From Ideonella sp. A 288 (GTDB lineage Bacteria > Pseudomonadota > Gammaproteobacteria > Burkholderiales > Burkholderiaceae_C): DNA of 43,176 nt. Below the pieces are notes generated by a model. The model made no database searches. It was given only the letters and a program-made list of their open reading frames with translations, and was not told where the DNA came from. Location of the stretch: positions 1-43,176 of the forward strand of contig NZ_MWLO01000091.1 in assembly GCF_002198735.1 (NCBI RefSeq). Reading direction: 5' to 3'. Shown piece after piece: positions 5,376 to 43,176 of this stretch (positions within the stretch are counted from its first letter, which is position 1; each line of letters starts with the position of its first letter). The position numbers and the translations under genes are program-made.

Positions 5376-6544
5376 TGGGCGCGCGCTCTGCCCACGGCGC
5401 GGGCGCCGTGCTGACGATCGACCTGGCGGCCATCGCCGCCAACTGGCGGCTGCTGAAGGCGCGCGTCGGCCGCGCCGACTGCGCCGCGGTGCTCAAGGCC
5501 GACGCCTACGGGCTGGGCGCGTCGCGCGTCGGCCCGGCGCTGGCTGCGGCCGGCTGCCGACACTTCTTCGTGGCGCACATCGACGAGGCCCTCGCGCTGC
5601 GGCCGCACCTGCCGGCGCAGGCCACCGTGGCCGTGCTGCACGGCGTGCCGCCCGGCGCCGAGGCCGACGCCGCGGCGGCGGGCCTGGTGCCGGTGCTCAA
5701 CAGCCGGCCGCAAGTCGACGCCTGGCGCGCCCAGGCGGCGCGGCGGGGCCGGCGACTGCCGGCCATCCTGCAGGTGGACACCGGCATGTCGCGGCTGGGC
5801 CTGTCGCCGGTGGAGGTGGAGGCGCTGGCGGCCGACCCCCAGGCCCTCGACGGCATCGACCTGGTGCTGGTGATGAGCCACCTGGCCTGCGCCGACGAGC
5901 CGGCCCACCCGGCCAACGCGGCGCAGCGCGAGCGCTTCGCCGCGGCGCGGCGGCGGCTGCCGGCGGCACCCGCGAGCCTGGCCAACTCGTCGGGCATCTT
6001 CCTGGGCGCCGACTGGCACTTCGACCTGGCCCGCCCCGGCGCGGCGCTGTACGGCGTGGCGCCGGTGCCCGGGGCGGCCAACCCGATGCGGCCGGTGGTG
6101 CGCCTGCAGGCCAAGGTGATCCAGACCCGCGCCATCGACGCCGGCACGCCGGTGGGCTACGGCTTCGGCTGGTGCGCCCCGGCCGCCACGCGCATCGCCA
6201 CCGTGTCGGTGGGCTATGCCGACGGCTGGCTGCGCAGCCTCAGCGATCGCGGCACCGCCTGGTTCGACGGCGTCGAGCTGCCGCTGGTGGGCCGGGTGTC
6301 GATGGACACGGCCACCTTCGACGTGGGTGCCCTGCCGGACGGAGCACTGCCACCGGGCACATTGGTGGACCTGATCGACGCGCGGCACGGCGTGGACGCG
6401 GTGGCCGCGCAGGCCGGCACCATCGGCTACGAGGTGCTCACAAGCCTGGGCAGCCGCTACGCGCGGCACTACCTGGGTGGGGACGAACTGGGTGGCATCC
6501 AGACCGCCCCAGCGCGCGATGGCGTCCCCGCCGCCATGGCCTGA
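5375..6544 (+). CDS. alr: Alanine racemase, catabolic type
   Basis: A 389-residue fold-type III PLP enzyme that interconverts L- and D-alanine. The PLP lysine is K41 in AVLKADAYGLG, and the catalytic tyrosine lies in SVGYADGW. GRVSMD and the C-terminal SRYARHY are also family-typical. The role is catabolic (DadX-like): L-alanine taken up by the preceding symporter is converted to D-alanine for DadA. ATG at 5375 shares its A with the symporter stop. The C-terminus has a tail of about 20 residues rich in Gly/Ala. No clear terminator follows, although a GC palindrome (GCGCCGCGCGGCGC) lies just after the stop. Confidence 0.95.
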   Translation: MGARSAHGAGAVLTIDLAAIAANWRLLKARVGRADCAAVLKADAYGLGASRVGPALAAAGCRHFFVAHIDEALALRPHLPAQATVAVLHGVPPGAEADAAAAGLVPVLNSRPQVDAWRAQAARRGRRLPAILQVDTGMSRLGLSPVEVEALAADPQALDGIDLVLVMSHLACADEPAHPANAAQRERFAAARRRLPAAPASLANSSGIFLGADWHFDLARPGAALYGVAPVPGAANPMRPVVRLQAKVIQTRAIDAGTPVGYGFGWCAPAATRIATVSVGYADGWLRSLSDRGTAWFDGVELPLVGRVSMDTATFDVGALPDGALPPGTLVDLIDARHGVDAVAAQAGTIGYEVLTSLGSRYARHYLGGDELGGIQTAPARDGVPAAMA

Positions 6545-6608
6545 GGCCCCGCGCCGCGCCGCGCGGCGCTCGGCCCCGGCGCCCGCGAATCGGGTCGCAT
6601 GGGGCCCT

Positions 6609-6636
6609 CTTGAAAGCCGCGGAACCCGCCTCTAGA
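6609..6636 (+). promoter_or_regulatory. Sigma-32-like heat-shock promoter
   Basis: CTTGAAA at 6609-6615 is an exact sigma-32 -35 element. After 13 bp, CCTCTAGA (6629-6636) is a fair -10 in the place of CCCCATNT. It sits about 65 bp ahead of the first of three small heat-shock genes, which makes the assignment likely. Confidence 0.6.
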
Positions 6637-6701
6637 TTCGGTGGTGCCAGGGCGCTGCGCCGCTGTTGGCGCGGTGCCTGCCACCCCAGGAGGTCCAGAC
6701 C

Positions 6702-7139
6702 ATGTATCGCAGCCTGTTCCCCCGCGATCTGTTCGCGGAAGTGGATCGCCTGCAGCGTGAGCTGCAGCAATCCTTCGACACCGTCTCGCCCAGCATCCGC
6801 GGCTTTGCCCGTGGCTACCCGGCGCTCAACGTCGGCCACACGCCGACCTCGGTGGAGGTGTACGCCTTCGTGCCGGGCATCGACCCGGCGCGCGTGGAGG
6901 TGCACCTGGACCGCGGCGTGCTCACCCTCGAAGGGCAGCGCGAGCCGGCCACCGGCCCCGACGACGGCAAGACCACGGCGCACCTGGCCGAGCGCTTCGA
7001 CGGCCATTTCCGCCGCGTCGTCAGCCTGCCCGACGACATCGACCCCGAAGCCGTCCGGGCCGACTACCGCGACGGCGTGCTGCACGTCAGCGTGCAGCGC
7101 CGCCAATCGGCGCAGCCGCGCCGCATCGAAGTGCAATGA
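6702..7139 (+). CDS. Small heat shock protein (Hsp20) 1
   Basis: A 145-residue ATP-independent holdase chaperone. The N-terminal arm (MYRSLFPRDLFAEVDRLQRE) is followed by an alpha-crystallin domain from about residue 45 (VEVYAFVPGIDPARVEVHL) to the YRDGVLHV strand near the end. The tail is QPRRIEVQ, containing an I-x-V anchor. The start is set by CAGGAGG at 6687-6693. It is first of three tandem hsp20 genes, with an 18-bp gap to the next, behind a sigma-32-like promoter. Confidence 0.92.
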   Translation: MYRSLFPRDLFAEVDRLQRELQQSFDTVSPSIRGFARGYPALNVGHTPTSVEVYAFVPGIDPARVEVHLDRGVLTLEGQREPATGPDDGKTTAHLAERFDGHFRRVVSLPDDIDPEAVRADYRDGVLHVSVQRRQSAQPRRIEVQ

Positions 7140-7157
7140 ACCCGAGGAGATGACGCC

Positions 7158-7550
7158 ATGACCAGCCAAGCCGTCACCCAGACCGGTCGACCCGACGCGC
7201 GCGACGACGCTCGCCCCGAACCGGCCCTGCTGCCCCCGGTGGACGTGATCGAAGATGCCACCGGCATCACCCTGTACGCCGACCTGCCCGGCGTGCCGCG
7301 CGACCGACTGAACGTGCGCGTGGAGAGCGACACCCTGCTCATCGACGCCGACATGGTGCTGAGCGCGCCGCCCGACATGCAGCCCAGCCACGCCGAGGTG
7401 CAGCGCACGCACTACCGCCGCGCCTTCACGCTGAGCCGCGAGCTCGACCCCGACCAGGTGCGGGCCGAACTGGCCCAGGGCGTGTTGCGCGTGCGCATCC
7501 CCAAAGCCCGCCACGCCCAGCCGCGGCGCATCGAGGTGCAGGCCGGCTGA
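7158..7550 (+). CDS. Small heat shock protein (Hsp20) 2
   Basis: A 130-residue Hsp20. The crystallin domain runs from about residue 28 (DVIEDATGITLYADLPGVP) to AQGVLRVRIPKA. Its last residues, AQPRRIEVQ, repeat those of the preceding Hsp20, pointing to local duplication or to co-assembly through the same C-terminal anchor. The N-terminal arm is different and rich in Asp/Pro/Arg. GAGGAG lies upstream of the ATG. It probably forms mixed oligomers with its neighbours. Confidence 0.9.
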   Translation: MTSQAVTQTGRPDARDDARPEPALLPPVDVIEDATGITLYADLPGVPRDRLNVRVESDTLLIDADMVLSAPPDMQPSHAEVQRTHYRRAFTLSRELDPDQVRAELAQGVLRVRIPKARHAQPRRIEVQAG

Positions 7551-7589
7551 GGCCCGCGCCGCCGCACGACAACCGCGAGGAGAGCGACC

Positions 7590-8096
7590 ATGAAACTCGA
7601 CGACATCCGCCAGGGCGTCGGCGCGCTGTGGGATTCGGTGGCCGAGGGCTGGGACCGCCTGCGCCAGACCACCGCCGGGGCGCTGACGCGCTACCGGCCC
7701 GCCAACCAGGCCGGCCTGCCCCGGCCCGACGAGGTGGACGATGCCAGCTACGTGCCCAGCGCCAGCTGGGCCATGCTGGGCGGCGACGTGTTCGAGGACG
7801 ACAAGCGCATCGTCGTGCGCCTGGAGGCCCCGGGCATGGCCAAGGGCGACTTCGACATCCAGGTGCTGGGCGACGCGCTGGTGGTGCGCGGCGAGAAGCG
7901 CTTCGAGCGCGAGAGCACCGCCGGCCGCTGGCGCGTGCTGCAGTGCGCCTACGGCAGCTTCCTGCGCACCGTGCCGCTGCCCGCGCCGGTGAAGGAGGAC
8001 GAGTCGCGCGCCACCTACCGCCAGGGCGTGCTGAAGGTGGAGCTGGTGAAGCAGAAGCCGGGCAAGCCCAGCGTCACGCAGATCACCGTGCATTGA
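7590..8096 (+). CDS. Small heat shock protein (Hsp20) 3
   Basis: A 168-residue Hsp20-family protein, third in the operon, with GAGGAG upstream and a 39-bp gap. The N-terminal arm of about 60 residues is longer than in the other two and begins with an amphipathic segment (IRQGVGALWDSVAEGWDRL). The crystallin domain follows (DDKRIVVRLEAPGMAKGDFDI to YRQGVLKVEL). It lacks the shared QPRRIEVQ tail and has no clear I-x-I/V anchor, so its oligomer assembly probably differs. Confidence 0.88.
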   Translation: MKLDDIRQGVGALWDSVAEGWDRLRQTTAGALTRYRPANQAGLPRPDEVDDASYVPSASWAMLGGDVFEDDKRIVVRLEAPGMAKGDFDIQVLGDALVVRGEKRFERESTAGRWRVLQCAYGSFLRTVPLPAPVKEDESRATYRQGVLKVELVKQKPGKPSVTQITVH

Positions 8097-8100
8097 GCGG

Positions 8101-8131
8101 GGCGGGCGGGCCGGTGGCCGGCCCGCCCGCC
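8101..8131 (+). terminator. Strong GC hairpin after hsp20 operon
   Basis: A perfect 14-bp inverted repeat with a 3-nt loop (arms 8101-8114 and 8118-8131) starts 5 bp after the third hsp20 stop. There is no T-tract, as is common in such GC-rich genomes. It probably acts as a transcription stop or 3' mRNA stabiliser. Confidence 0.65.
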
Positions 8132-8444
8132 GCACGGCCCTCGCCGGCCTCGCGGCGATCGAGAGGGTGCGCGCGGGAGGTGCGCCGCCCATGTCGGACG
8201 CTTCCGCTGCCACGACGCCGACGCCGCCAGCGCTCTGGCCGCAGGCGGCCCGGTGGTCCCGGAGCGACCCATCCCCAGGCAGGTCGTTGCCACGGCTTCG
8301 CGCCGACCTTACATTCCCCACTCAAGCGCCGCCGCGGCATGTCAGTCCGCAGGGGTCCAACTGCCACGGGAAGCGTCGCGCGCACTGGGTCTGAGCGCCG
8401 GCGCGCCAGATGAACGTCATTGGTTCGGCCTCAGGAATCTCCAC
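8132..8444. other. Non-coding gap, nothing recognised
   Basis: About 310 bp between the hsp20 hairpin and the Tat-type cupin gene. Open frames cross it, but their composition looks non-coding and none has a convincing start. No tRNA, repeat or clear promoter was found. A CAGGAA at 8432-8437 serves the next gene. Confidence 0.5.
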
Positions 8445-9197
8445 ATGCCGGTCAGTCGTCGAAGTCTCCTTCGGAACTGCGCGTCCTTCCCGGTCTACGC
8501 ATTGGTCGCCGAGCTCGCGCGTGCCGCACCAAGGACGCAGGCCGTGCCCGCACGCCGTTGGTTGTCGTTGCAGAGCGAACTTGCACGCGCACTTGCCGGC
8601 GGAAAGATCAGCCCAGCCGACTGGCACCAGCAGGTCAACGAGCTGTCGAAGGACGTCGATCTCGAGTCTCTCGCCCACGAATTGAGGCGCGCCAGGATCA
8701 AGGACGCGGGAGCGCCGTTCGGGCACGACCCCCAGAAGCGGTTCGTGACGATCCTGGGAGAAGACGACGCACCGGTCAGGCTCGGCTATGGCCTCGCACT
8801 GTTCGACTTTGGGCCGGAGAGCGTGATCACGCCCCATGCGCACCGGTACATGGCCAGTGCGCACATGGTCATCGACGGCCGCGTGAGGGTTCGAACCTTC
8901 GACCGGGTCAAGGACGAAGAGAACTTTCTCATCCTTCGACCGACGCAAGATACCCTGGCCGAACCCGGCCATTCCGCCGCCATGACCTCATCGACTGACA
9001 ACGTCCACTGGTTTGCGCCCAGATCCAGCCGCGCAATGACCATTGACGTGATCATCGACGGGCTCGACCGGGGCAAAGATCGCTACCTGATCGAGCCCGT
9101 CGATCCGCTGCGCGGAAGCCAGCTCTCGGACGGCACCATCCGAGCCCCCCTCATCTCGTTCGAACGGTCGATGGAGCTCTACCGTGCCAGCAGCTGA
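8445..9197 (+). CDS. Tat-exported cupin-domain protein
   Basis: A 250-residue protein with a likely twin-arginine signal (SRRSLLRN, then a hydrophobic stretch ending near ELARAAP). A helical region (about 35-85) precedes a cupin-like beta-barrel whose metal-ligand block is PHAHRYMASAHMVIDGRVRV, giving several candidate His ligands. A Tat signal fits a cofactor loaded in the cytoplasm. The enzyme activity is not recognised. ATG 8445 was chosen because it places the RR motif at the N-terminus; the frame is open to 8253. The gene is visibly less GC-rich than its neighbours, hinting at separate acquisition. Confidence 0.7.
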   Translation: MPVSRRSLLRNCASFPVYALVAELARAAPRTQAVPARRWLSLQSELARALAGGKISPADWHQQVNELSKDVDLESLAHELRRARIKDAGAPFGHDPQKRFVTILGEDDAPVRLGYGLALFDFGPESVITPHAHRYMASAHMVIDGRVRVRTFDRVKDEENFLILRPTQDTLAEPGHSAAMTSSTDNVHWFAPRSSRAMTIDVIIDGLDRGKDRYLIEPVDPLRGSQLSDGTIRAPLISFERSMELYRASS

Positions 9198-29670: not shown

Positions 29671-30036
29671 GGGTCGGGTGGCCGTGGAAGACCTTGGTGC
29701 GACCCTCGCGCTCGCCGCCCAGGGCGGCGACGTCCGACCCACCGCGTCCGGGCAGGCCGAGCCGCCAGCGCTATCACGGCATCGCAACCGGCCGGCGCCG
29801 GTGGTACCGCCTCGGCACGGAACCGGTCGCCGCAAGGCGCGCGGAGGCCCCGCCGCGGGCAGCGCATCCGGGGCCTGGTGCCACCGCGCCCTGCGGCATC
29901 CCAGTGTCGGCGGCTTCTACATTCCAGCCTTGGTTGACGCGTTCTCGTGTTGATTCACAACGGATTTTTGGGGTGGTCTGATCTTTACTAACCGCCGATG
30001 CAGTCTGAATCCACCCACAGTCAATTGGAGCTACCC
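29671..30036. other. Intergenic region before the PEP-CTERM gene
   Basis: 366 bp with no convincing gene. The last 100 bp become AT-richer (29930-30030), as expected of a promoter, and contain TTGACG at 29934-29939 and a GTTG-ATTCA-CAAC dyad at 29949-29961. No -10 at the right distance is clear, so the promoter is not assigned. Confidence 0.45.
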
Positions 30037-30828
30037 ATGAGTCTTTCGTTCTTGAAGTGCAGCCTCGTATCGGGCGTCATCGGTGCGGCGCTGTTCGCCG
30101 GACAAGTCTCGGCGGCCCCCGTCTACCTGCGGTCCAATACCGGCCAACCCTGGGGCGTCAACACCAACGAGACCGCCATGAATGCGGCATTCGGGGCGGG
30201 CGTCTGGAGCGATCTGCGCTACGAGACCGCCAACGTCGCCACGCTGTTCAGTGCGGCCAACCGCTTCATCTTCATGGAAGGCGGTGACACGAATGCCGAT
30301 GAACTCGAGGCCTTTCTGGGCGCCAACGGCGCGTTGATCGCGGCCTGGGTGAACGGCGGCGGCAGCCTGTTCGTCAACGCCGCCCCGAACGAGGGCGACG
30401 GCATGAACTACGGGTTTGGCGTGACGCTGTCGTATCCGGACTTCGACGGCTGCGACACCGCGACGGCCGTCAATGCCGCGCACCCCATCTTCTCGGGCGT
30501 TGCCACGGCCTACACGGGATCGTCCTTCTGCCACGCCAACGTCTTCGGTGCCGGCTTGACCTCGCTGATCAACGATGGCAGCGGCGAATCCACGTTGGCC
30601 GAGATGGCCGTTGGCGCCGGCCACGTCATGTTCGGCGGGATGACCACCACCAACTTCCAGGATCCTGAGGCCGACGCCTTCAATCTGCGGGTGAACATCC
30701 TCGAGTACGGCGCCGCCCAGGCCGGGCAAGTGGTGCCCGAGCCGAACACGGCGCTGCTGGTTGCCGCGGCGGCACTGGCGTTTGCAGGCCGTCGGCGCCA
30801 GAAGACAGCGGCGCGCGCCTCGGCCTGA
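30037..30828 (+). CDS. PEP-CTERM sorted protein with a GATase-like fold
   Basis: A 263-residue exported protein. A signal peptide (residues 1-26, cleavage near VSA-AP) and a C-terminal PEP-CTERM tail frame it: VPEP at 233-236, a hydrophobic span (LLVAAAALAFAG) and a basic end (RRRQK). The tail directs exosortase-mediated sorting to the outside. The middle part (LEAFLGANGALIAAWVNGGG, AAHPIFSGVAT, GHVMFGGMTTT) resembles the class I glutamine-amidotransferase-like fold seen in ThuA/DUF4350 proteins, but no catalytic Cys is obvious. TTGGAG at 30025-30030 sets the start. Exosortase is not in this window. Confidence 0.85.
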   Translation: MSLSFLKCSLVSGVIGAALFAGQVSAAPVYLRSNTGQPWGVNTNETAMNAAFGAGVWSDLRYETANVATLFSAANRFIFMEGGDTNADELEAFLGANGALIAAWVNGGGSLFVNAAPNEGDGMNYGFGVTLSYPDFDGCDTATAVNAAHPIFSGVATAYTGSSFCHANVFGAGLTSLINDGSGESTLAEMAVGAGHVMFGGMTTTNFQDPEADAFNLRVNILEYGAAQAGQVVPEPNTALLVAAAALAFAGRRRQKTAARASA

Positions 30829-32622: not shown

Positions 32623-32904
32623 GCAATGGCTTCGATGGGGGCGGCGGGCCCGGCGTGCGGGCGGTGGCGGGCCACCGGGCCCTGCACGGGCGGTCGAGCG
32701 ACACCGAGGGGCCGATGATGGCAGACGCCCCCGGGCGGCGCGGCCCGACGGTGCCCGGGCCGGCGACGGCCCGTCGGCCTGCGCCCGACGCCCGCTCGCG
32801 CCGTGCGATGGCGTACAGACCCCGCCGGGTGCGGCGCCCACAGTCGTGCAGCCGGCGAGCCGCCGCCCAGGCCGGCCCCCGCCCCACCCACCGATCGGCA
32901 CGCG

Positions 32905-33927
32905 ATGACCCGAAGCCCCGCGACGGCCACCGCCGCCATCCCCCTGGCCGCTCCCGCGGCCGAATCCCGGGTGGCGATCTACGGCGCCATCGCGGCCAAC
33001 GTGGCCATCGCCGTCACCAAATTCGCCGTGGCCGGCGTCACCGGCAGTTCGGCCATGCTGTCCGAGGGCATCCACTCGGCGGTCGACACCTTCAACGGCG
33101 TGCTGCTGCTGGTGGGCATCCGCCTGAGCCAGCGGCCGGCCACGCCCGAGCACCCGTTCGGACACGGCAAGGAGCTGTACTTCTGGAGCCTGATCGTCGC
33201 GGTGCTGATCTTCGGCCTGGGTGGTGGCGTGTCGTTCTACGAGGGCGTGCAGCACATTCGCCACCCGCAGCCGATGACCGACCCGAGCTGGAACTACGCC
33301 GTGCTCGGCGCGGCCACGCTGTTCGAGAGCATCAGCTTCGCCATCGCGCTGCGCCAGTTCCGCCGGCAGGCGGCCGGTGCGCCGTTCTGGCAGGCGGTGC
33401 ACCGCAGCAAGGACCCCACCACCTACACCGTGCTCGCCGAAGACGCGGCGGCGCTGGCGGGCCTGGCCATCGCGGCCACGGGCATCGCGCTGGCCCATGC
33501 GCTGGACATGCCGGTGCTGGACGGCGTGGCCTCGCTGCTCATCGGCGTGCTGCTCGCCGGCGTGGCCTCGCTGCTGACCTGGGAATCGCGCGGCCTGCTC
33601 ATCGGCGAGGGCATCCGCCCCGAGACGGCGCAGGCCCTGCGCGCCATCGCACTGGCCCAGCCGGGCGTGCGCGACGTGGGGCGGGTGCTGTCGATGTACG
33701 TGGGGCCCGACGACGCGCTGGTGACGATGGACCTCGACTTCGACGCGGGCACCGGGACGGCCGAAGCGGCGCTGGCCTTTGCCCAGATCGTGCAGCGCGT
33801 GCGGGCACGCTACCCGATGATCCGGCGGCTCTTCGTCGAGGCCGGTGCCGGCTCGGCGCTGCAGCGCTGGACGCGGCCGGATGCGATCCGTCTGGACGGC
33901 GAGGGCGTGGCTGCGACGGGCCCTTGA
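32905..33927 (+). CDS. Cation diffusion facilitator (ZnT9-like)
   Basis: A 340-residue CDF transporter, exporting Zn2+ or a similar divalent cation. SSAMLSEGIHSAVDTFNGVL carries the HxxxD metal site of TM2, PEHPFGHGKELYFW follows in the first loop, and TVLAEDAAALAGLAIA carries the TM5 site. The cytosolic tail (residues 250-325) is a ferredoxin-like domain ending in PMIRRLFVEAG. The sequence layout (DPTTYTVLAEDAAA) resembles the eukaryotic ZNT9/bacterial YdfM branch. It diverges from tapT over 282 bp in which no site was recognised. Confidence 0.9.
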   Translation: MTRSPATATAAIPLAAPAAESRVAIYGAIAANVAIAVTKFAVAGVTGSSAMLSEGIHSAVDTFNGVLLLVGIRLSQRPATPEHPFGHGKELYFWSLIVAVLIFGLGGGVSFYEGVQHIRHPQPMTDPSWNYAVLGAATLFESISFAIALRQFRRQAAGAPFWQAVHRSKDPTTYTVLAEDAAALAGLAIAATGIALAHALDMPVLDGVASLLIGVLLAGVASLLTWESRGLLIGEGIRPETAQALRAIALAQPGVRDVGRVLSMYVGPDDALVTMDLDFDAGTGTAEAALAFAQIVQRVRARYPMIRRLFVEAGAGSALQRWTRPDAIRLDGEGVAATGP

Positions 33928-33940
33928 CGCAGCCGCGCGA

Positions 33941-35581
33941 TCACAGCGGCGCCAGCCCCTCGCCGCGCAGGCCCACCAGCAGCGCGCGGCCGCCAGGCTC
34001 GACGCGGAACTCGCCGTACTTCGCCGCGGCCCAGCGCGCGGCCTCGCCCTCGCGGAAGAACCACGCGTCGGTGACGACGATCCAGCGGCCGTCCTTCGGC
34101 GTCAGCTGCAGTCGCAGTTCGTCCGCGGCCAGCGGCCGGCCGTCGTCGACGCGCAGCAGCGTGGCCACGCCGCGGCCGTCGCGCCGGGCCACCACCACCG
34201 GCCGGGCGCCGGTGAGCAGCCCGTCGGCCGTGGCCTGCACGGCGTCGGGCACGCGGAAGTTCAGCCGCATGAAGTCGCCCTGCATCAGCGAGCGCGGGTC
34301 GGCGGGCGCCAGTTCGACGAACACCGGTTGCCCGTCCGCGATCAGGTTCTCTTTCTGCCACGCGCCGACGTTGGCCACGGCCAGCGCCAGCAGTGCACTG
34401 GCGGCGATGGCCAAGCGCGGTCCGAGACCGTCGCCGCGGGGTGCCGCTGCCGAGGCCGGCGGCGGTGGGCCGGCGCGGCGATCGGCGCGGCCGGCCCACC
34501 AGGCCAGCGCGCCCAGCACGGCTCCGGCGGCGACCAGCACCACGGCCTTGGTCGACAGCGGCCAGGCCAGGGTGTAGTAGAACGCGCCGACGGTCCACAC
34601 CGCGGCCAGCGCCGCCGCCGCGGCCCGCCGCCATCGTGCGCTGGTGGCACAGGCCGCCAGCACCAGCAGCACCGCCCCCAGCGCGGGCATGAACCACGCC
34701 AGCACCAGCAGTGCCGCGGCCACGCCGATCAGCCACGGGCGGCGCACCGCCGGCCACCGGTGGGCGGTCCAGGCCGCGGCGGCCAGGGCCAGCAGCAGCG
34801 ACACGCCCTGCGCCAGGCCCAGGCCGACCGTGGCCGACGTGCGCATCGCCGACGACCGCAGCACCTCGCCGGGCAGCCCGCCGCCCAGGCTGCCGCCGAC
34901 CAGGAAGGCCATGCCCGACCACCAGGCCAGGCCTGCCAGCGTGGCCAGCACCCAACCGGTGGACACCGATTCCAGCAGCGCCGCCAGGCGCGCACGGGCG
35001 CCATCGACGAGTGCCCGCTGCTGCACCGCGGTGGCCAGCAGCCACAGCGCCAGGGCCAGGTGCCAGGCCAGCCAGAGGCGCAGCGATTGCGGCGCGCCCC
35101 AGTGGCCGCGCAGGCAAGCCACCGCCAGCAGTGCGGCCGCCGCAGCGCCCAGCAGCGCGCGCAGCCAGGCCTGGGCCACCCCCGCCGCGACGGCCAGCGC
35201 CAGGGCCGCCAGCAGCGCCGCGGCGGCCGCGTCCGGCAGGTCGCGGAACAGGCCGAAGCCCAGTCCCCCTCCGCCCACCAGCAGCGCCGGCACGGCCAGT
35301 TGCTCGGCGAAGGCCGACACCCCGGACGAGCGCAGCACCACCAGCGCGCCGGCCAGCACCAGCCCGCCGGCGAGGTAAGGGCCGGCGCTGCGGCCGATCA
35401 GGTCGCCGAACAGCAGGCCCACCACCCCCAGCAGCGGCACCGCCGCCAGCCAGGCGCCCAGCGCGGTGAGCAGCACCACCGGCCACGGGCGGGCGTCCGG
35501 CGCGGGCGGCGTGGCCGTCGGCGGGAGCAGTCCGTTGTCGATGGCCGCGCGCAGCACGGCGTCGAGGCGTGGCGCGGTCAT
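33941..35581 (-). CDS. DUF4401 - GDYXXLXY fusion membrane protein
   Basis: A 546-residue membrane protein. The first 370 residues form about 9-12 hydrophobic segments of the DUF4401 type (opening MTAPRLDAVLRAAIDNGLLP). The last 160 form a periplasmic GDYXXLXY domain, in which the motif is GDFMRLNF (QGDFMRLNFRVP) in place of GDYxxLxY. In many bacteria these are two separate genes; here they are one. ATG overlaps the stop of the DUF2157 gene (ATGA). Function unknown; the co-occurrence of the three domains suggests a complex. Confidence 0.85.
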   Translation of the reverse strand: MTAPRLDAVLRAAIDNGLLPPTATPPAPDARPWPVVLLTALGAWLAAVPLLGVVGLLFGDLIGRSAGPYLAGGLVLAGALVVLRSSGVSAFAEQLAVPALLVGGGGLGFGLFRDLPDAAAAALLAALALAVAAGVAQAWLRALLGAAAAALLAVACLRGHWGAPQSLRLWLAWHLALALWLLATAVQQRALVDGARARLAALLESVSTGWVLATLAGLAWWSGMAFLVGGSLGGGLPGEVLRSSAMRTSATVGLGLAQGVSLLLALAAAAWTAHRWPAVRRPWLIGVAAALLVLAWFMPALGAVLLVLAACATSARWRRAAAAALAAVWTVGAFYYTLAWPLSTKAVVLVAAGAVLGALAWWAGRADRRAGPPPPASAAAPRGDGLGPRLAIAASALLALAVANVGAWQKENLIADGQPVFVELAPADPRSLMQGDFMRLNFRVPDAVQATADGLLTGARPVVVARRDGRGVATLLRVDDGRPLAADELRLQLTPKDGRWIVVTDAWFFREGEAARWAAAKYGEFRVEPGGRALLVGLRGEGLAPL

Positions 35582-36558
35582 GTCCTGCCCTCCATGGCAC
35601 GCTGGGCGCGCGCCCGCCGCAGCACGAAGGCCACGGTGGCCGCCAGCAGCGCTGCGGCGGCCAGGCCCAGCAGCAGCAGTGTGCCGATCGGGTCGCGGCC
35701 GTCGTGCCGGTCGAACAGTGCGCGCGTCAGGCCGGCCACCAGCAGGCCGTCGATCGCCAGGGCCGCCGCGCTGAGGCCGTACAGGTCGAAGCCGCGCGCA
35801 CTGGCCTGCCAGGCCGCGGCCGCGGCCAGCACCGCCAACCCCAGCGGGTAATGGGTGCCGACGTGCTCGTGGAACAACCCGCCCAGCGCGGTGAGCGTGA
35901 CCACCCCCACCGCCAGCGTCAGCGCGGTGCGCTGCGACCACACGCCGGCCCCGGTGACGGGCCGCCACCGGGCATCCAGTGCCCCCACCACGGCCCAGGC
36001 GCCGCCCCAGCCCGCCAGGTGCACCCAAAGGTCGTCGGGCTCCACCCGCCAGCGGTGGCCGGTGTGCGCCTGCACCCACAGCGACAGCGCCGTCAGCACC
36101 ACCAGCGCCCAGGGCGCCCACAGCACGTCGCTGCGCACGCCCAGGCACAGCGGCAGCGCCAGCGCGGCCCACAGCGCGAACAGCTGCCACGCGTCGGCGC
36201 CGGTCTGGTAGGTCTGGCCGAAGTGCGCGAACAGGCCGCCGATGGCCAGCAGCGCCAGCAGCCCCAGCGGCGCGCGCGCGGCCGGCCGCCACAGCGCGCC
36301 TGCGCACATCGCCAGCACCACGCCCTCGATCAGCGCGAAGCGGCCGAAGCGGCCCAGCGTGTCCCAGTGGGCCGCCACCCAGAACACCAGCCCCAGCCCG
36401 ACGAGCGCCGCCCCCAGCACCGCCACGCCGCGCTGCAGCCGCGGCGCCAACGCGGCCGGCGCGTCGTGCAGGCCGGCCAGGTGCTCCAGGCGGCGGGTGG
36501 CTTCGGCATCGAGGCGGTGCGCTGCCGCGAGCCGGTAAAGCGCCAGGCGCATGTCCAT
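35578..36558 (-). CDS. DUF2157 membrane protein
   Basis: A 326-residue protein with a short cytosolic N-terminal helix region (MRLALYRLAAAHRLDAEATR) and then about 8-10 membrane segments, including GLGLVFWVAAHWDTLGRFGR and GLFAHFGQTYQTGADAWQLF, which are DUF2157 signatures. It is translationally coupled to the DUF4401-GDYXXLXY gene. The ATG at 36558 (MDMRLAL) is used; 36552 and 36591 are alternatives. Confidence 0.85.
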   Translation of the reverse strand: MDMRLALYRLAAAHRLDAEATRRLEHLAGLHDAPAALAPRLQRGVAVLGAALVGLGLVFWVAAHWDTLGRFGRFALIEGVVLAMCAGALWRPAARAPLGLLALLAIGGLFAHFGQTYQTGADAWQLFALWAALALPLCLGVRSDVLWAPWALVVLTALSLWVQAHTGHRWRVEPDDLWVHLAGWGGAWAVVGALDARWRPVTGAGVWSQRTALTLAVGVVTLTALGGLFHEHVGTHYPLGLAVLAAAAAWQASARGFDLYGLSAAALAIDGLLVAGLTRALFDRHDGRDPIGTLLLLGLAAAALLAATVAFVLRRARAQRAMEGRT

Positions 36559-36887
36559 GGGGGGCCTGTGGGTGGTGGCGATGGTGGGCATCGTAGGCGC
36601 GCGGTCGACCAGGCGGCGGGCCATCGGGGGTGGATTGCCCCGCGAGACCGGTGGGCGCGTCCGGCGATACGCCCTGCCGCCGCGAACGCGCGGCCTGGCC
36701 GTCCCGAAGACGGCGTCGAGGTGGACGCTCCACCATCGCGCCATCAGCGCCCGGCGCAGGAGATTTCTCGACGCCCGGGACACCGCTTCGGCCATGGTCG
36801 CGCGAACGGCGCGGCAAGGGGCGAAGAGGCGACGGGCGGAGCCCGCACCGCCGTGCTGGGCCTGAGGAGCATTGCATACTCGCGGCC
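36559..36887. other. Divergent intergenic region
   Basis: 329 bp between the DUF2157 gene and the ketopantoate-reductase-like gene. TGAGGAG at 36863-36869 may be the ribosome site for the latter, although 18 nt before its ATG. No repeat, hairpin or confident promoter was recognised. Confidence 0.45.
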
Positions 36888-37892
36888 ATGCCGACGCTCC
36901 CACCCGTTCCGCCCGCCGCGCCCGCCAGCGCTGCGCTGCAGGCCAGCGCCGCGTTCCACAGCATCGCCGTGGTCGGCGCCGGCGCCGTCGGCAGCTTCTT
37001 CGGCGCGATGCTGGCGCGCGCCGGCCATGCGGTCACGCTGATCGCCCGCCCGGCGCATGTGCAGGCCATCGAGGCCCATGGCCTGGCGCTGCACCGCGGC
37101 GGCACGGTCGAGTTCGTGCGCGTGGCCGCCACCACCGAGCTGGCGGCCGTGCGCGGCGCCGACCTGGTGCTGTTCTGCGTGAAGTCCACCGACACCGACG
37201 CGGTGGCCCGCGAGATGGCGCCGCTGCTGTCCGACGGCGCCGTGGTGCTGAGCCTGCAGAACGGCGTCGACAACCCGCAGGCCATCGCGCGGCACGTGCG
37301 GCAGATGGTGGTGCCAGTGGTCGTCTACGTGGCCACCGCGATGCCCTCGCCGGGCGTGGTGCAGCACTTCGGCCGCGGTGATCTGGTGATCGGCCCGATC
37401 GACGCCCAGGCCGCGGACGACCCGGCGCAGCAGCAGTGCCTGCAGGCCGTGGCCGCCCTGTTCGCCGCGTCCGGCGTGCCGGTGCAGGTGTCGCCCGACG
37501 TGATGGGCGAGCTGTGGCGCAAGCTGATGGTGAACTGCGCCTACAACGCGATCTCGGGCCTGGCCCAGGCGCCCTACGGCCGCATGGCCGAGCTGCCCGC
37601 GATCCGCGAACTGCAGCAGGCGGTGGTGCGCGAGGTGGTGGCCGTGGCGCAGGCCGAGGGCCAGCGCCTGCCGCTCGACGCCGCGCTGGCGGCGATGTCG
37701 CACATCGCCGTGGCGATGCCGGCGCAGCTGTCGTCCACCGCGCAGGACATGGCGCGCCACAAGCCCAGCGAGATCGACCACCTCAACGGCTACGTGGCCC
37801 GGCGCGGCGCCGAGCTCGGCGTGCCGACCCCGGTGAACCAGGCGCTGTGGGCGCTGGTCAAGTTGGTGGAAGCCAGCCGCGCGGCCGGCTGA
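36888..37892 (+). CDS. panE: Ketopantoate reductase family protein
   Basis: A 334-residue NADPH-dependent reductase. The Rossmann motif is VVGAGAVGSFFGAMLARAG (about 28-46). The PanE active-site lysine is in WRKLMVNCAYNAISGLA, and the C-terminal helix block SEIDHLNGYVARRGAELGVP matches the substrate-binding Glu/Asn region. The family makes pantoate for CoA, but many paralogues reduce other 2-oxoacids. This one sits 32 bp before an APH-fold kinase and an enolase paralogue, so the substrate may differ. An N-terminal extension of about 20 Pro/Ala-rich residues precedes the first strand. The start is not certain. Confidence 0.82.
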   Translation: MPTLPPVPPAAPASAALQASAAFHSIAVVGAGAVGSFFGAMLARAGHAVTLIARPAHVQAIEAHGLALHRGGTVEFVRVAATTELAAVRGADLVLFCVKSTDTDAVAREMAPLLSDGAVVLSLQNGVDNPQAIARHVRQMVVPVVVYVATAMPSPGVVQHFGRGDLVIGPIDAQAADDPAQQQCLQAVAALFAASGVPVQVSPDVMGELWRKLMVNCAYNAISGLAQAPYGRMAELPAIRELQQAVVREVVAVAQAEGQRLPLDAALAAMSHIAVAMPAQLSSTAQDMARHKPSEIDHLNGYVARRGAELGVPTPVNQALWALVKLVEASRAAG

Positions 37893-37924
37893 GCCGCGGC
37901 GCCGCTGTTCCGCCCCGACGCACG

Positions 37925-38938
37925 ATGCCCGACGCCCGCCCCGCCGTGCCGCCCGAATTCGCGCAGGCGCTGCACGAGCTGGGCCTGGCCGGCCGCAGCG
38001 TGCTCACCGGCGAGCCCTTGACCGGTGGCGTGTCGTCCGACATCTGGCGCCTCGACACCTCGCAGGGGCCGGTGTGCGCCAAGCGGGCGCTGGCCCGGCT
38101 GCGCGTGGCCGCCGACTGGCGGGCGCCGATCGAGCGCAACCGCTACGAGGCACGCTGGATGCAGGTGGCCGACGCCGCGGTGCCGGGCTGCGCGCCGCGG
38201 GTGCTGGGCCAGCACCCGGCGCTGGGCGTGCTGGTGATGAGCTGGCTGCCGCCCGACGACCACCCGCTGTGGAAGGCGCAGCTGCGAGACGGCCAGGCCG
38301 ATCTGGCCACGGCGCAGGCGGTGGGCCGCACGCTGGTGCGCATCCACGCCCATTCGGCGGCGCGGCCGGCGCTGGCCGCGCAGTTCGACACCGACCGCAT
38401 CTTCTTCGACATCCGGCTCGAGCCCTACCTGCTGGCCACCGCGGCGCGGCACCCCGACCTGGCACCACAGCTGCGGGCGCTGGTGGCGCAGACGCAGTCG
38501 CATCCCCTGGCGCTGGTGCACGGCGACGTCAGCCCGAAGAACATCCTCGTCGGCCCGCAGGGGCCGGTGCTGCTGGACGCCGAATGCGCCTGGTGGGGCG
38601 ACCCGGCCTTCGACCTGGCGTTCTGCCTGAACCACCTGCTGCTGAAGTGCCTGTGGCAGCCGCCGGCCACCGCGGCCTTCCTGGCCTGCTTCGCCGCGCT
38701 GGCCGAGGCCTACCTGCAGGGCGTCGACTGGGAACCGTGCGTGGCCCTGGAACAGCGCGCCGCCGCCCTGTTGCCGGGGCTGCTGCTGGCGCGGGTGGAC
38801 GGCAAGTCGCCGGTCGAGTACCTGACGGCCGACGCGCCGCGCGAGGTGGTGCGCCGCACCGCGCGGGCCTTGCTGCAACAGCCGGTCGCGCAGCTCCATC
38901 GGGTGAGCGCGGCCTGGCAACGGGAGCATCCGACATGA
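37925..38938 (+). CDS. APH-fold small-molecule kinase
   Basis: A 337-residue kinase of the aminoglycoside phosphotransferase/choline kinase fold. LTGGVSSDIWRLDT (33-45) is the nucleotide loop, VCAKRALARLR gives the ATP-binding Lys, and LALVHGDVSPKNILV (196-209) is the catalytic loop (D201, N206). LLDAECAWWGDPAFDLAF replaces the DFG-like metal site. Substrate unknown; sugar-, polyol- or hydroxyacid-type substrates are possible, and an aminoglycoside is unlikely. Its stop overlaps the enolase-paralogue start by ATGA, indicating that its product is used by that enzyme. Confidence 0.8.
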   Translation: MPDARPAVPPEFAQALHELGLAGRSVLTGEPLTGGVSSDIWRLDTSQGPVCAKRALARLRVAADWRAPIERNRYEARWMQVADAAVPGCAPRVLGQHPALGVLVMSWLPPDDHPLWKAQLRDGQADLATAQAVGRTLVRIHAHSAARPALAAQFDTDRIFFDIRLEPYLLATAARHPDLAPQLRALVAQTQSHPLALVHGDVSPKNILVGPQGPVLLDAECAWWGDPAFDLAFCLNHLLLKCLWQPPATAAFLACFAALAEAYLQGVDWEPCVALEQRAAALLPGLLLARVDGKSPVEYLTADAPREVVRRTARALLQQPVAQLHRVSAAWQREHPT

Positions 38939-40221
38939 CCACCGCCTGCTCGATCCTCAGCGTCCACGGCCGGCGCGTCTGGGACAGCCGCGGCCGCCCC
39001 ACCGTGGAGGCCGAGGTGACGCTGAACGACGGCTCGGTGGGCCGCGCCATCGTGCCGGCCGGCGCCAGCAAGGGCACGCGCGAGGCGCTCGAGCTGCGCG
39101 ACCACGGCGAGGCCTTCGGCGGGCTCGACGTGCAGCGCGCGCTGGGCCATGTCAACCGCACGATCGGCCGCGCCGTGCGCGGCATGGCCGCCGACGACCA
39201 GGCCGCGATCGACGCCTGGCTCATCGCGCTGGACGGCACGCCGGGCAAGTCGCGGCTGGGGGCGAACGCCACGCTGGCGGTGTCGATGGCGGCGGCGCAC
39301 GCGGTGGCGGCGTCGCGCGGCGTGCCGCTCTACCAGTCGCTCGGCGGCGCCGAAGCCGTGCTGCTGCCGATGCCGCAGATCCAGATCTTCGGCGGCGGCG
39401 CGCACGCCGGCCGCCGCGTCGACATCCAGGACTTCATGGTGGTGTGCCCCGGCGCCGGCAGCTTTGCGCAGGCGCTGGAGTGGACGGCCGAGGTCTACCG
39501 CCACGCCGGCCTGCTGATGCAGTCGCGCGGCGCGCTGGCCGGCGTGGCCGACGAGGGCGGCTGGTGGCCCTCGTTCGACAGCAACGAGCAGGCGCTGGAG
39601 GCGCTGGTGGCATCGATCGAGCGCGCCGGCTTCGTGCCCGGCGAGCAGGTGGCCATCGCGCTGGACATCGCGGCCAGCGACTTCGGCAGCAATGGCCGCT
39701 ACACGCTGGGGCTGGAGCGCCGCGAGCTGGACAGCGACGGCCTGATCGAGCTGCTGCTGCGCTGGTGCGAGCGCTTCCCCATCGCCAGCATCGAAGACCC
39801 GCTGGCCGAGGACGACCCGGCCGCCTTCGCACGCTTCACCCGCGCGGTGGGCCACCGCCTGCAGGTGGTGGGCGACGACTTCCTGGTGTCGAGCGCCGAA
39901 CTGGTGCAGCAGGCCGCCGCCGCGGGCGCGGCCAACACCGTGCTGCTCAAGCCCAACCAGCGCGGCACGCTCACCGAGACCCTGCAGTGCTGGGACGCCG
40001 CGCGCGCGCTGGGCTATGCCGGCATCGTCTCGGCGCGCTCGGGCGAGACCGAGGACACCACCATCGTGCACCTGGCCATCGCCTGGCAGGCCGGCCAGCT
40101 GAAGGTGGGCTCGTTCGCCCGCGGCGAGCGCATGGCCAAGTGGAACGAGGCGCTGCGCATCGAAGAGCGCCTGGGCACGCGCGCCCGCTTCGCCGGCGCC
40201 GGCGTGTTCGGCCGCTGCTGA
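38935..40221 (+). CDS. Divergent enolase paralogue
   Basis: A 428-residue member of the enolase proper family (usual length about 430). It keeps RRVWDSRGRPTVEAEV, GASKG, H157, the VADEGG catalytic Glu (E207), the IEDPLAEDD and VGDDFLV metal sites, K339 (LLKPNQRGTLTET) and K390 (LKVGS). It departs at two active-site positions: VSARSGETED has Ala367 where enolases have the loop His (yeast H373), and VDIQDFM has Asp166 where they have Glu168. The GGAHAGRR loop also replaces the usual HADNN. Genuine 2-phosphoglycerate dehydration may be weak or absent; a related phospho-hydroxyacid is a possible substrate. The housekeeping eno would be elsewhere. It starts inside the kinase stop codon. Confidence 0.85.
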   Translation: MTTACSILSVHGRRVWDSRGRPTVEAEVTLNDGSVGRAIVPAGASKGTREALELRDHGEAFGGLDVQRALGHVNRTIGRAVRGMAADDQAAIDAWLIALDGTPGKSRLGANATLAVSMAAAHAVAASRGVPLYQSLGGAEAVLLPMPQIQIFGGGAHAGRRVDIQDFMVVCPGAGSFAQALEWTAEVYRHAGLLMQSRGALAGVADEGGWWPSFDSNEQALEALVASIERAGFVPGEQVAIALDIAASDFGSNGRYTLGLERRELDSDGLIELLLRWCERFPIASIEDPLAEDDPAAFARFTRAVGHRLQVVGDDFLVSSAELVQQAAAAGAANTVLLKPNQRGTLTETLQCWDAARALGYAGIVSARSGETEDTTIVHLAIAWQAGQLKVGSFARGERMAKWNEALRIEERLGTRARFAGAGVFGRC

Positions 40222-40284: not shown

Positions 40285-41579
<1,295 letters not shown>

Positions 41580-41580
41580 C

Positions 41581-42594
<1,014 letters not shown>

Positions 42595-42600
42595 AATGAA

Positions 42601-42740
42601 GCCCCCACGCTCTCTTCGTTCGCTGGCCCCCGAGGGGGCGGTCACAAGCCAATGTGGCTCTGCCACTTTGCTTGACCCCCGCGGGGGGCGGGCTGGGCGC
42701 AGCCCGGCCCTGGGGGCGGTCAGTTCCTTCGGAACGGCCG
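42601..42740. repeat. GC-rich interspersed repeat between bkdA2 and bkdB
   Basis: A compact string of hairpins: GCCCCC-GA-GGGGGC (42626-42639), the palindrome CCCCCGCGGGGG (42676-42687), GGGCT-N6-AGCCC, and GTTCC-TTC-GGAAC. The opening CCCCCACGCTC...TTCG.TCGCTG followed by the C/G stem is a pattern I recall as repeated in Burkholderiales chromosomes. It fills nearly the whole intergenic gap inside the operon and may attenuate bkdB expression. Confidence 0.6.
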
Positions 42741-42752
42741 GGCGGTACTGAG

Positions 42753-43176
42753 ATGGCCACCGACCGCGTGATCAAGGTGCCCGATGTCGGCGAGGGCGTG
42801 GCCGAGGTCGAACTCGTCGCCTGGCACGTGCAGCCCGGCGACAGCGTGGCCGAGGACCAGATCCTGGCCGATGTGATGACCGACAAGGCCAGCGTCGAGA
42901 TCCCGTCGCCGGTGGCCGGCCGGGTGCTGGCACTGGGCGGCGTGGTGGGGCAGACGCTGGCGGTGGGTGCCGAGCTGATCCGCCTCGAGGTGGCGGCGGC
43001 AGGGACGACCGCGGCGCCCGCCAGCACCCCGGCGCCGGCCGCGGCACCGGCGCCAGCGTTGGCCGCGGCCAGCCCAACGCCGACGCCGACGCCCGCCCCA
43101 CCGGCCGCAACGGCCACCGCACCGCCGGTTGCAGCGTCTCCGACCCCGCCGGCCCCGCGCGGTGCCGCGCCGCAGC
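42753..43176 (+). CDS. bkdB: Branched-chain 2-oxoacid dehydrogenase E2, partial
   Basis: The first 141 codons of the dihydrolipoyl acyltransferase, cut by the window end. One lipoyl domain (residues 4-80) has the lipoylated K45 in DVMTDKASVEIPSPVAG, and a long Ala/Pro/Thr-rich mobile linker begins near residue 84. The peripheral-subunit-binding and catalytic domains lie beyond the window. The ATG at 42753 follows the repeat with only a weak ribosome site. Confidence 0.93.
   Translation, partial: MATDRVIKVPDVGEGVAEVELVAWHVQPGDSVAEDQILADVMTDKASVEIPSPVAGRVLALGGVVGQTLAVGAELIRLEVAAAGTTAAPASTPAPAAAPAPALAAASPTPTPTPAPPAATATAPPVAASPTPPAPRGAAPQ

Follow-up and report, generated by a model that had tools for sequence, protein, structure and literature searches.

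Several described systems come close to a gene module that we analyzed in a 43,176-nucleotide stretch of the genome of Ideonella sp. A 288 (contig NZ_MWLO01000091.1; the whole stretch is termed the window below), and which encodes a 2-oxoacid reductase, a kinase of the APH superfamily and a paralogue of enolase. The same order of chemistry is found in the serine-cycle segment of hydroxypyruvate reductase, glycerate 2-kinase and enolase; the module differs from it in that its kinase belongs to another superfamily, its enolase has a changed active site, and MOFRL glycerate kinases are also present in the genome. With enolase itself the paralogue shares the Pfam domains, the TIGR01060 model, the magnesium ligands, the lysine base, the glutamate acid and the Arg-Ser phosphate site, but it is a second copy, has Asp and Ala in place of Glu168 and His373 (yeast numbering), and is nearly always tied to the kinase. 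The enolase fold has likewise been recruited to a non-glycolytic reaction in carboxyphosphonoenolpyruvate synthase and its kin, enolase paralogues of phosphonate biosynthesis, a likeness drawn by description only. The kinase has the fold and motifs common to 5-methylthioribose kinase and other small-molecule kinases of the APH superfamily, but is distant from the former in sequence. The catabolism of four-carbon acid sugars (OtnK/DtnK, PdxA2 and an aldolase) is reminiscent of the module's surroundings, as the 7-kb neighborhood of the kinase includes OtnK-like genes in 11 and PdxA genes in 8 of 106 loci. The known routes of this kind (see PMC10580937) phosphorylate C4 and are not known to use an enolase.

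A kinase and an enolase paralogue as the conserved unit

The module occupies positions 36888-40221 of the window, with its three genes in tight order on one strand and a gap of 32 bp between reductase and kinase:

36888..37892, + strand, 2-oxoacid reductase of the ketopantoate-reductase (KPR) family, 334 aa; exchangeable part of the module
37925..38938, + strand, APH-superfamily kinase, 337 aa; module core
38935..40221, + strand, enolase paralogue, 428 aa, in which Asp166 aligns with yeast E168 and Ala367 with yeast H373; module core
38935..38938, + strand, 4-bp overlap (ATGA) between the 3' end of the kinase gene and the 5' end of the enolase gene in the window sequence

These coordinates and translations agree with those of an initial annotation made from the sequence alone, which had also reported the ATGA overlap, and its family calls are upheld by the Pfam and TIGR scores (in Pfam, ApbA at 1.2e-37 and ApbA_C at 8.2e-35 for the reductase, APH at 1.2e-17 for the kinase, Enolase_N at 1.9e-47 and Enolase_C at 3.1e-83 for the paralogue).

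A scan of a genome collection with the kinase recovered 169 confirmed stretches. We retained the 80 best loci, which by record title are mostly from Burkholderiales and Acetobacteraceae/Rhodospirillales. An enolase paralogue follows the kinase on the same strand in 78 of these 80, and in the other two loci (L044 and L073) the contig breaks off downstream of the kinase; hence the juxtaposition is not a matter of chance. The junction is a 4-bp overlap, ATGA or GTGA, in about 63 of the 78 pairs (50 ATGA and one GTGA counted by script, with 10 ATGA and two GTGA added by hand for pairs whose match begins at the start codon, which the script missed). Among 398 genomes of the window's phylum (taken as Pseudomonadota and including the window's own genome), kinase and paralogue occur in the identical nine, at cut-offs that we set at E values up to 1e-30 and 1e-165, respectively. 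In a second sample of 385 genomes from another class, that of genome G405 (taken as Alphaproteobacteria), the kinase is found in 39 and a high-scoring paralogue in 33, all of them among the 39; here we placed the paralogue cut-off between 558 and 525 bits, where a gap in the scores divides the enolase groups. Below this gap lie the remote paralogues of G520 and G762, and also two enolase matches each in the kinase-less G535 and G643. As the paralogue adjoins the kinase in G520, G711 and G762, all outside the high-scoring 33, it is held by 36 of the 39 kinase-bearing genomes.

The linkage is thus common, not absolute. Kinase and paralogue lie on different contigs in G519, G589 and G717, another gene separates them in G707, and three genomes of the class sample (G454, G738 and G756) have the kinase with a single enolase each, of canonical residues. 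The kinases of these three branch within the family, close to the G316 and G277 kinases (at a fork with support of 90/93, which is not full), and this nested position suggests that the paralogue was probably lost there; in two of the three (L232, 7176-8174, and L235, 7100-8068) the HGD motif has Gln in place of its His. Within the window's own genus the kinase is patchy, as the 20 congeners gave one strong full match and one partial match. Kinase and paralogue are nevertheless found as partners in many bacteria and in some archaea, and their co-occurrence supports the view that they behave as a functional pair.

The real unit is therefore the kinase with the enolase paralogue, and the idea of a conserved three-gene cassette, which the initial annotation had put forward, was rejected. 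In a wider table of 106 loci, drawn up for a distance of 7 kb and including near-duplicates (e.g. L100/L112 and L101/L110), a KPR-family gene is present in 27, and in 26 of the best 80 loci. In loci of the Acetobacteraceae type it is replaced by a D-2-hydroxyacid dehydrogenase, an arrangement seen in 27 loci, with the dehydrogenase directly after the enolase in 26. One or the other reductase occurs in 77 of the 106 loci; if only the 83 loci with both flanks are considered, 59 have a reductase of either family and 24 have neither within 7 kb. The expected co-occurrence of the genes in relatives accordingly held for kinase and enolase, but not for the reductase, which is exchangeable and sometimes absent nearby. 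The two reductase families are unrelated and share the same type of chemistry.

These figures bear on the possibility that the reductase is simply a PanE-like enzyme unrelated to the other two, with only kinase and enolase cooperating and the adjacency of the Burkholderiales-type loci accidental. The window reductase indeed scores 263 bits against the TIGR00745 cut-off of 141 and has the ApbA domains, and the 24 loci lacking both reductase families point the same way. It falls short of the equivalog model for PanE function, NF005091 (226.6 against 252 bits). A KPR gene lies, however, just upstream of the kinase in many independent loci, 22 of 25 stop-to-kinase distances falling between -5 and 61 bp (5.5 kb in L039; the script value is not meaningful for L037 and L091). 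As an unrelated reductase fills this role in other loci, we consider an accidental neighbor quite improbable, the least probable of the alternatives weighed here.

The kinase itself has the APH domain and the HGDxxxxN motif, and fifteen diverse members have in common the stretches HGDxSPKN, LDxE, a GDPxFD-like and a LARVDGKSPxEY-like motif. Its AlphaFold model (pLDDT 91.7) finds methylthioribose kinases as the nearest folds in the PDB (E 5.7e-15, TM 0.75, 17% identity). A role in methionine salvage was rejected, since the TIGR01767 methylthioribose kinase model scores only 48.3 bits against a cut-off of 275; salvage genes were not recognised, although no dedicated search for them was made. Neither of the glycerate-kinase classes, MOFRL and PF02595, is among the Pfam matches of the kinase at an E value of 0.001.

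An altered enolase active site and its predicted reaction

The paralogue is not the sole enolase of its genome, so that one objection foreseen in the initial annotation, a sole eno, does not apply. A separate canonical enolase is encoded on another contig (443 bits, against 281 for the paralogue) and is 45% identical to it, and a canonical enolase is also present in 14 of 14 module genomes tested. In a maximum-likelihood tree of 36 of the paralogues and 14 canonical enolases, the latter all from module genomes, a single branch with 100/100 support splits the two groups.

The window paralogue has the domains, the equivalog score (478 bits in TIGR01060, cut-off 300) and the catalytic residues of a canonical enolase, without its Glu168 and His373. 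The magnesium ligands, the lysine base, the Arg-Ser phosphate site and His159 are conserved throughout 84 aligned paralogues, and the general acid Glu is conserved in 83. The position of yeast Glu168 is Asp in all 84, and that of His373, which precedes the conserved Arg-Ser, is Ala in 83 and Gly in the remote L104. Gly replaces Asn152 in 81 members, and the EGG motif is followed by a Trp, again in 81. The combination of Asp and Ala recurs in 28 of 28 further paralogues, including the kinase-unlinked copies of G519 and G717, and in the rhodococcal, sphingobial, methylobacterial and haloarchaeal paralogues that we read, whereas canonical enolases of module genomes have Glu168 and His373 in 14 of 14. 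In an alignment with PDB entry 4yws, presumably the Chloroflexus aurantiacus enolase (the residue numbering agrees), residues Glu165, Glu206, Lys338, Arg367 and Ser368 correspond to Asp166, Glu207, Lys339, Arg368 and Ser369 of the window protein. In the C. aurantiacus enzyme these five residues hold 2-phosphoglycerate (PMC4450660). Throughout the paralogue group four of these five contacts are kept and one is shortened from Glu to Asp. Two further positions vary by sub-clade, 46 (T, K or R, also M or I) and 343 (R, A, I or N), and this variation could reflect several related substrates. The kinase matched 33 plasmid records, and 15 of these were examined. In ten annotated plasmid loci the paralogue is labelled eno, phosphopyruvate hydratase or enolase; the label phosphopyruvate hydratase is perhaps wrong.

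The remote L104 (Enterobacter plasmid, 6193-8918), which is part of the 84-member alignment and was left out of the trees and the 106-locus table, has a distant kinase of the family transcribed divergently from an enolase-like gene that encodes Lys in the general-acid position and Gly at H373; next come genes for a U32-like protein, an aminotransferase and an MFS transporter. This is perhaps a biosynthetic cluster whose enolase fold has lost dehydration.

The gene pairing, the family membership, the retained enolase machinery and the consistent change at two active-site positions are direct observations. Given the paired genes, the preserved proton-abstraction machinery and the one-sided change of the site, we propose an enolase-type dehydration of a 2-phospho-3-hydroxy acid other than 2-phosphoglycerate, phosphorylated by the kinase. 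In this proposal, to which we assign a probability of about one half, kinase and paralogue would constitute an ATP-dependent dehydratase for small C3-substituted (2R)-2,3-dihydroxy acids larger than glycerate, yielding an enol phosphate. The 2-oxoacid reductase, of the KPR family here and a D-2-hydroxyacid dehydrogenase elsewhere, would supply or interconvert the (R)-2-hydroxy acid, a configuration as in 2-phospho-D-glycerate that we favor because D-specific reductases fit it. The kinase would then phosphorylate the 2-OH of this acid, the paralogue would remove the C2 proton and the C3-OH to give the enol phosphate, and this would be converted to a 2-oxo-3-deoxy acid for general catabolism. 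The initial annotation had outlined such a course of reduction, phosphorylation and dehydration: the kinase-enolase pair and the reductase beside 59 of the 83 loci bear it out in part, while the substrates and the direction of flux, like the position phosphorylated and the fate of the product, are what we infer. Our leading guess for the substrate is a tetronate such as D-erythronate or L-threonate, because of operons combining OtnK, PdxA and an aldolase with the pair and because a CH2OH on C3 would need room.

Gene neighborhoods and the glycerate question

The neighborhoods have hydroxy-acid catabolism as their theme and no single upstream route in common. Two loci of the Acetobacteraceae type (L064 and L088) encode, in one direction, an HpcH/HpaI aldolase, the kinase, the enolase, a D-2-hydroxyacid dehydrogenase, an OtnK/DtnK-like kinase and PdxA. 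Those of Paracoccus, Roseibium, G126 and G405 combine a LacI regulator, the kinase and the enolase with a FAH-family hydrolase and an SDR protein, in part with sugar or tricarboxylate transporters; FAH and SDR genes are accompanied by such transporters in L102, L103 and L156. In Rhodococcus the order is FAH, D-2-hydroxyacid dehydrogenase, enolase, kinase and FAH, and haloarchaeal loci contain a cupin, a gene of the ketol-acid reductoisomerase family and MR/MLE genes. Clusters of Rhizobium, Paraburkholderia, Cupriavidus and Sphingobium include an HpaD-like extradiol dioxygenase, a cupin and an alcohol dehydrogenase. This trio, with a cupin of about 190-197 aa, is common to the surroundings of the module in L100, L107, L109, L112, L113, L152 and L153. 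Besides OtnK and PdxA, the 7-kb counts for the 106 loci are four for a PhyH dioxygenase, five for HpcH and 12 for FAH or AraD1. On a Paracoccus plasmid (L163, 1-5666) a tricarboxylate-type transporter, a hydroxyacid dehydrogenase, an Ldh-family oxidoreductase and a member of the sulfate exporter family stand in a row, which we take to resemble sulfolactate catabolism; the sulfolactate-like set of Paracoccus, recognized by eye from the annotation, is 18 kb from the pair.

Several observations weigh against the dehydration of a larger acid. Some sugar-acid clusters have dehydratases of their own, IlvD-type in L066 and L156 (by eye) and galactonate-dehydratase-like in L157, so that such a route does not necessarily rely on the pair for dehydration. 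Four loci (L100, L112, L152 and L153, including two Rhizobium plasmids) have a gene for phosphoenolpyruvate (PEP) carboxylase next to the module, which suggests PEP as the product, and no dedicated enzyme releasing an enol phosphate other than PEP was seen to recur beside the pair. The three genomes with the kinase and no paralogue count on the same side, as does the AlphaFold model of the paralogue (mean pLDDT 85.8), in which three active-site loops fall below 50; the functional role of yeast His373, moreover, is an assumed one.

The main rival is a gluconeogenic entry in which hydroxypyruvate would be reduced to D-glycerate, a D-glycerate 2-kinase of a new class would form 2-phosphoglycerate, and the paralogue, as an isoform of enolase, would make ordinary PEP. 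The PEP carboxylase genes and the want of a recurring release enzyme in the loci read are consistent with it, as are sugar-acid pathways with FAH hydrolases or aldolases, which can end in glycerate or hydroxypyruvate, and a formate-tetrahydrofolate ligase found by eye near the pair in L161. So too is the situation in G454, G738 and G756, two of them of one genus, which combine the kinase with a canonical enolase only and lack both glycerate-kinase families. They are the three MOFRL-less genomes in a set of 12 kinase carriers; four other carriers, with the paralogue, likewise lack both MOFRL and PF02595. Against this, the window genome already has two MOFRL glycerate kinases along with its canonical enolase. 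MOFRL is present in 10 of 14 and 9 of 12 kinase carriers in two sets, and in 140 of 289 genomes of a class sample. Of the 23 to 25 kinase carriers in that sample, at least 19 have MOFRL; the kinase is thus no stand-in for MOFRL there, and its role as a substitute for a missing glycerate kinase was set aside. PF02595 was found in none of 26 genomes tested. Furthermore, were 2-phosphoglycerate the product of the kinase, there would be no need for its near-obligate pairing with an enolase altered at the same two sites. On balance we regard the glycerate route as possible yet unlikely.

The pair might also perform other chemistry, with a different leaving group on C3 (e.g. sulfite or a substituted hydroxyl), a phosphate at another position, or a reverse hydration of an enol phosphate. 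Both changed positions, 168 and 373, are on the leaving-group side of the site, some paralogue sub-clades have extra Arg residues, and the gene settings are very varied, down to the distant sulfolactate-like set of Paracoccus. However, the general acid Glu is retained in all but one of the aligned paralogues, as expected for loss of water, and among the loci read the pair has no recurrent sulfonate genes as neighbors, which makes such chemistry improbable.

Surroundings in the window and wider significance

Downstream of the module, from 40311 to the window end, three co-directional genes, on which the initial annotation is silent, encode components of a 2-oxoacid dehydrogenase complex:

40311..41579, + strand, E1-alpha of a branched-chain-type 2-oxoacid dehydrogenase; neighbor, not a conserved part
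41581..42594, + strand, E1-beta of the same complex; neighbor, not a conserved part
42753..43176, + strand, 5' part of a lipoyl E2 gene that runs past the window end; neighbor, named by eye only

E1/E2 genes follow the module in the same order only in the window and L023, and they were therefore rejected as part of it; an E1-beta-like match adjoins the reductase in L053 and in L039, the latter being the locus with the distant reductase. The interval between E1-beta and E2 (42597-42752) is GC-rich, with the look of an inverted repeat whose core, CCCCGAGGGGGC, occurs once in the window. Upstream, a DUF2157 membrane protein gene (35578-36903, - strand) is divergent from the module, and farther off lie a gene of the cation efflux family (32803-33927, + strand) and an open reading frame (29998-30828, + strand) with a PEP-CTERM motif match of 21.5 bits, barely above the cut-off of 20.7.

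Searches of the open-access PMC literature aimed at the kinase-enolase pair or its chemistry, judged by titles and opening lines of abstracts, listed no description of either. What appears to be new is an enolase-family enzyme with a changed site and a partner kinase whose specificity may be new. A more general reading, which we offer tentatively and hold to be rather doubtful, is that the pair represents an ATP-spending dehydration of 2,3-dihydroxy acids that replaces an iron-sulfur or mandelate-racemase-type dehydratase. Homologues of PEP, for example the enol phosphate of 4-hydroxy-2-oxobutyrate, would then be true intermediates in bacteria and haloarchaea, with sub-clades of the paralogue tuned to different C3 substituents.

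Labelled eno or enolase as it is, the paralogue may pass in metabolic reconstructions for an additional enolase of glycolysis. Should its substrates be other phospho-acids, one of the most familiar enzyme families would gain a reaction, homologues of PEP would be predicted as metabolites, and a kinase mostly annotated as an aminoglycoside phosphotransferase would acquire a new specificity.

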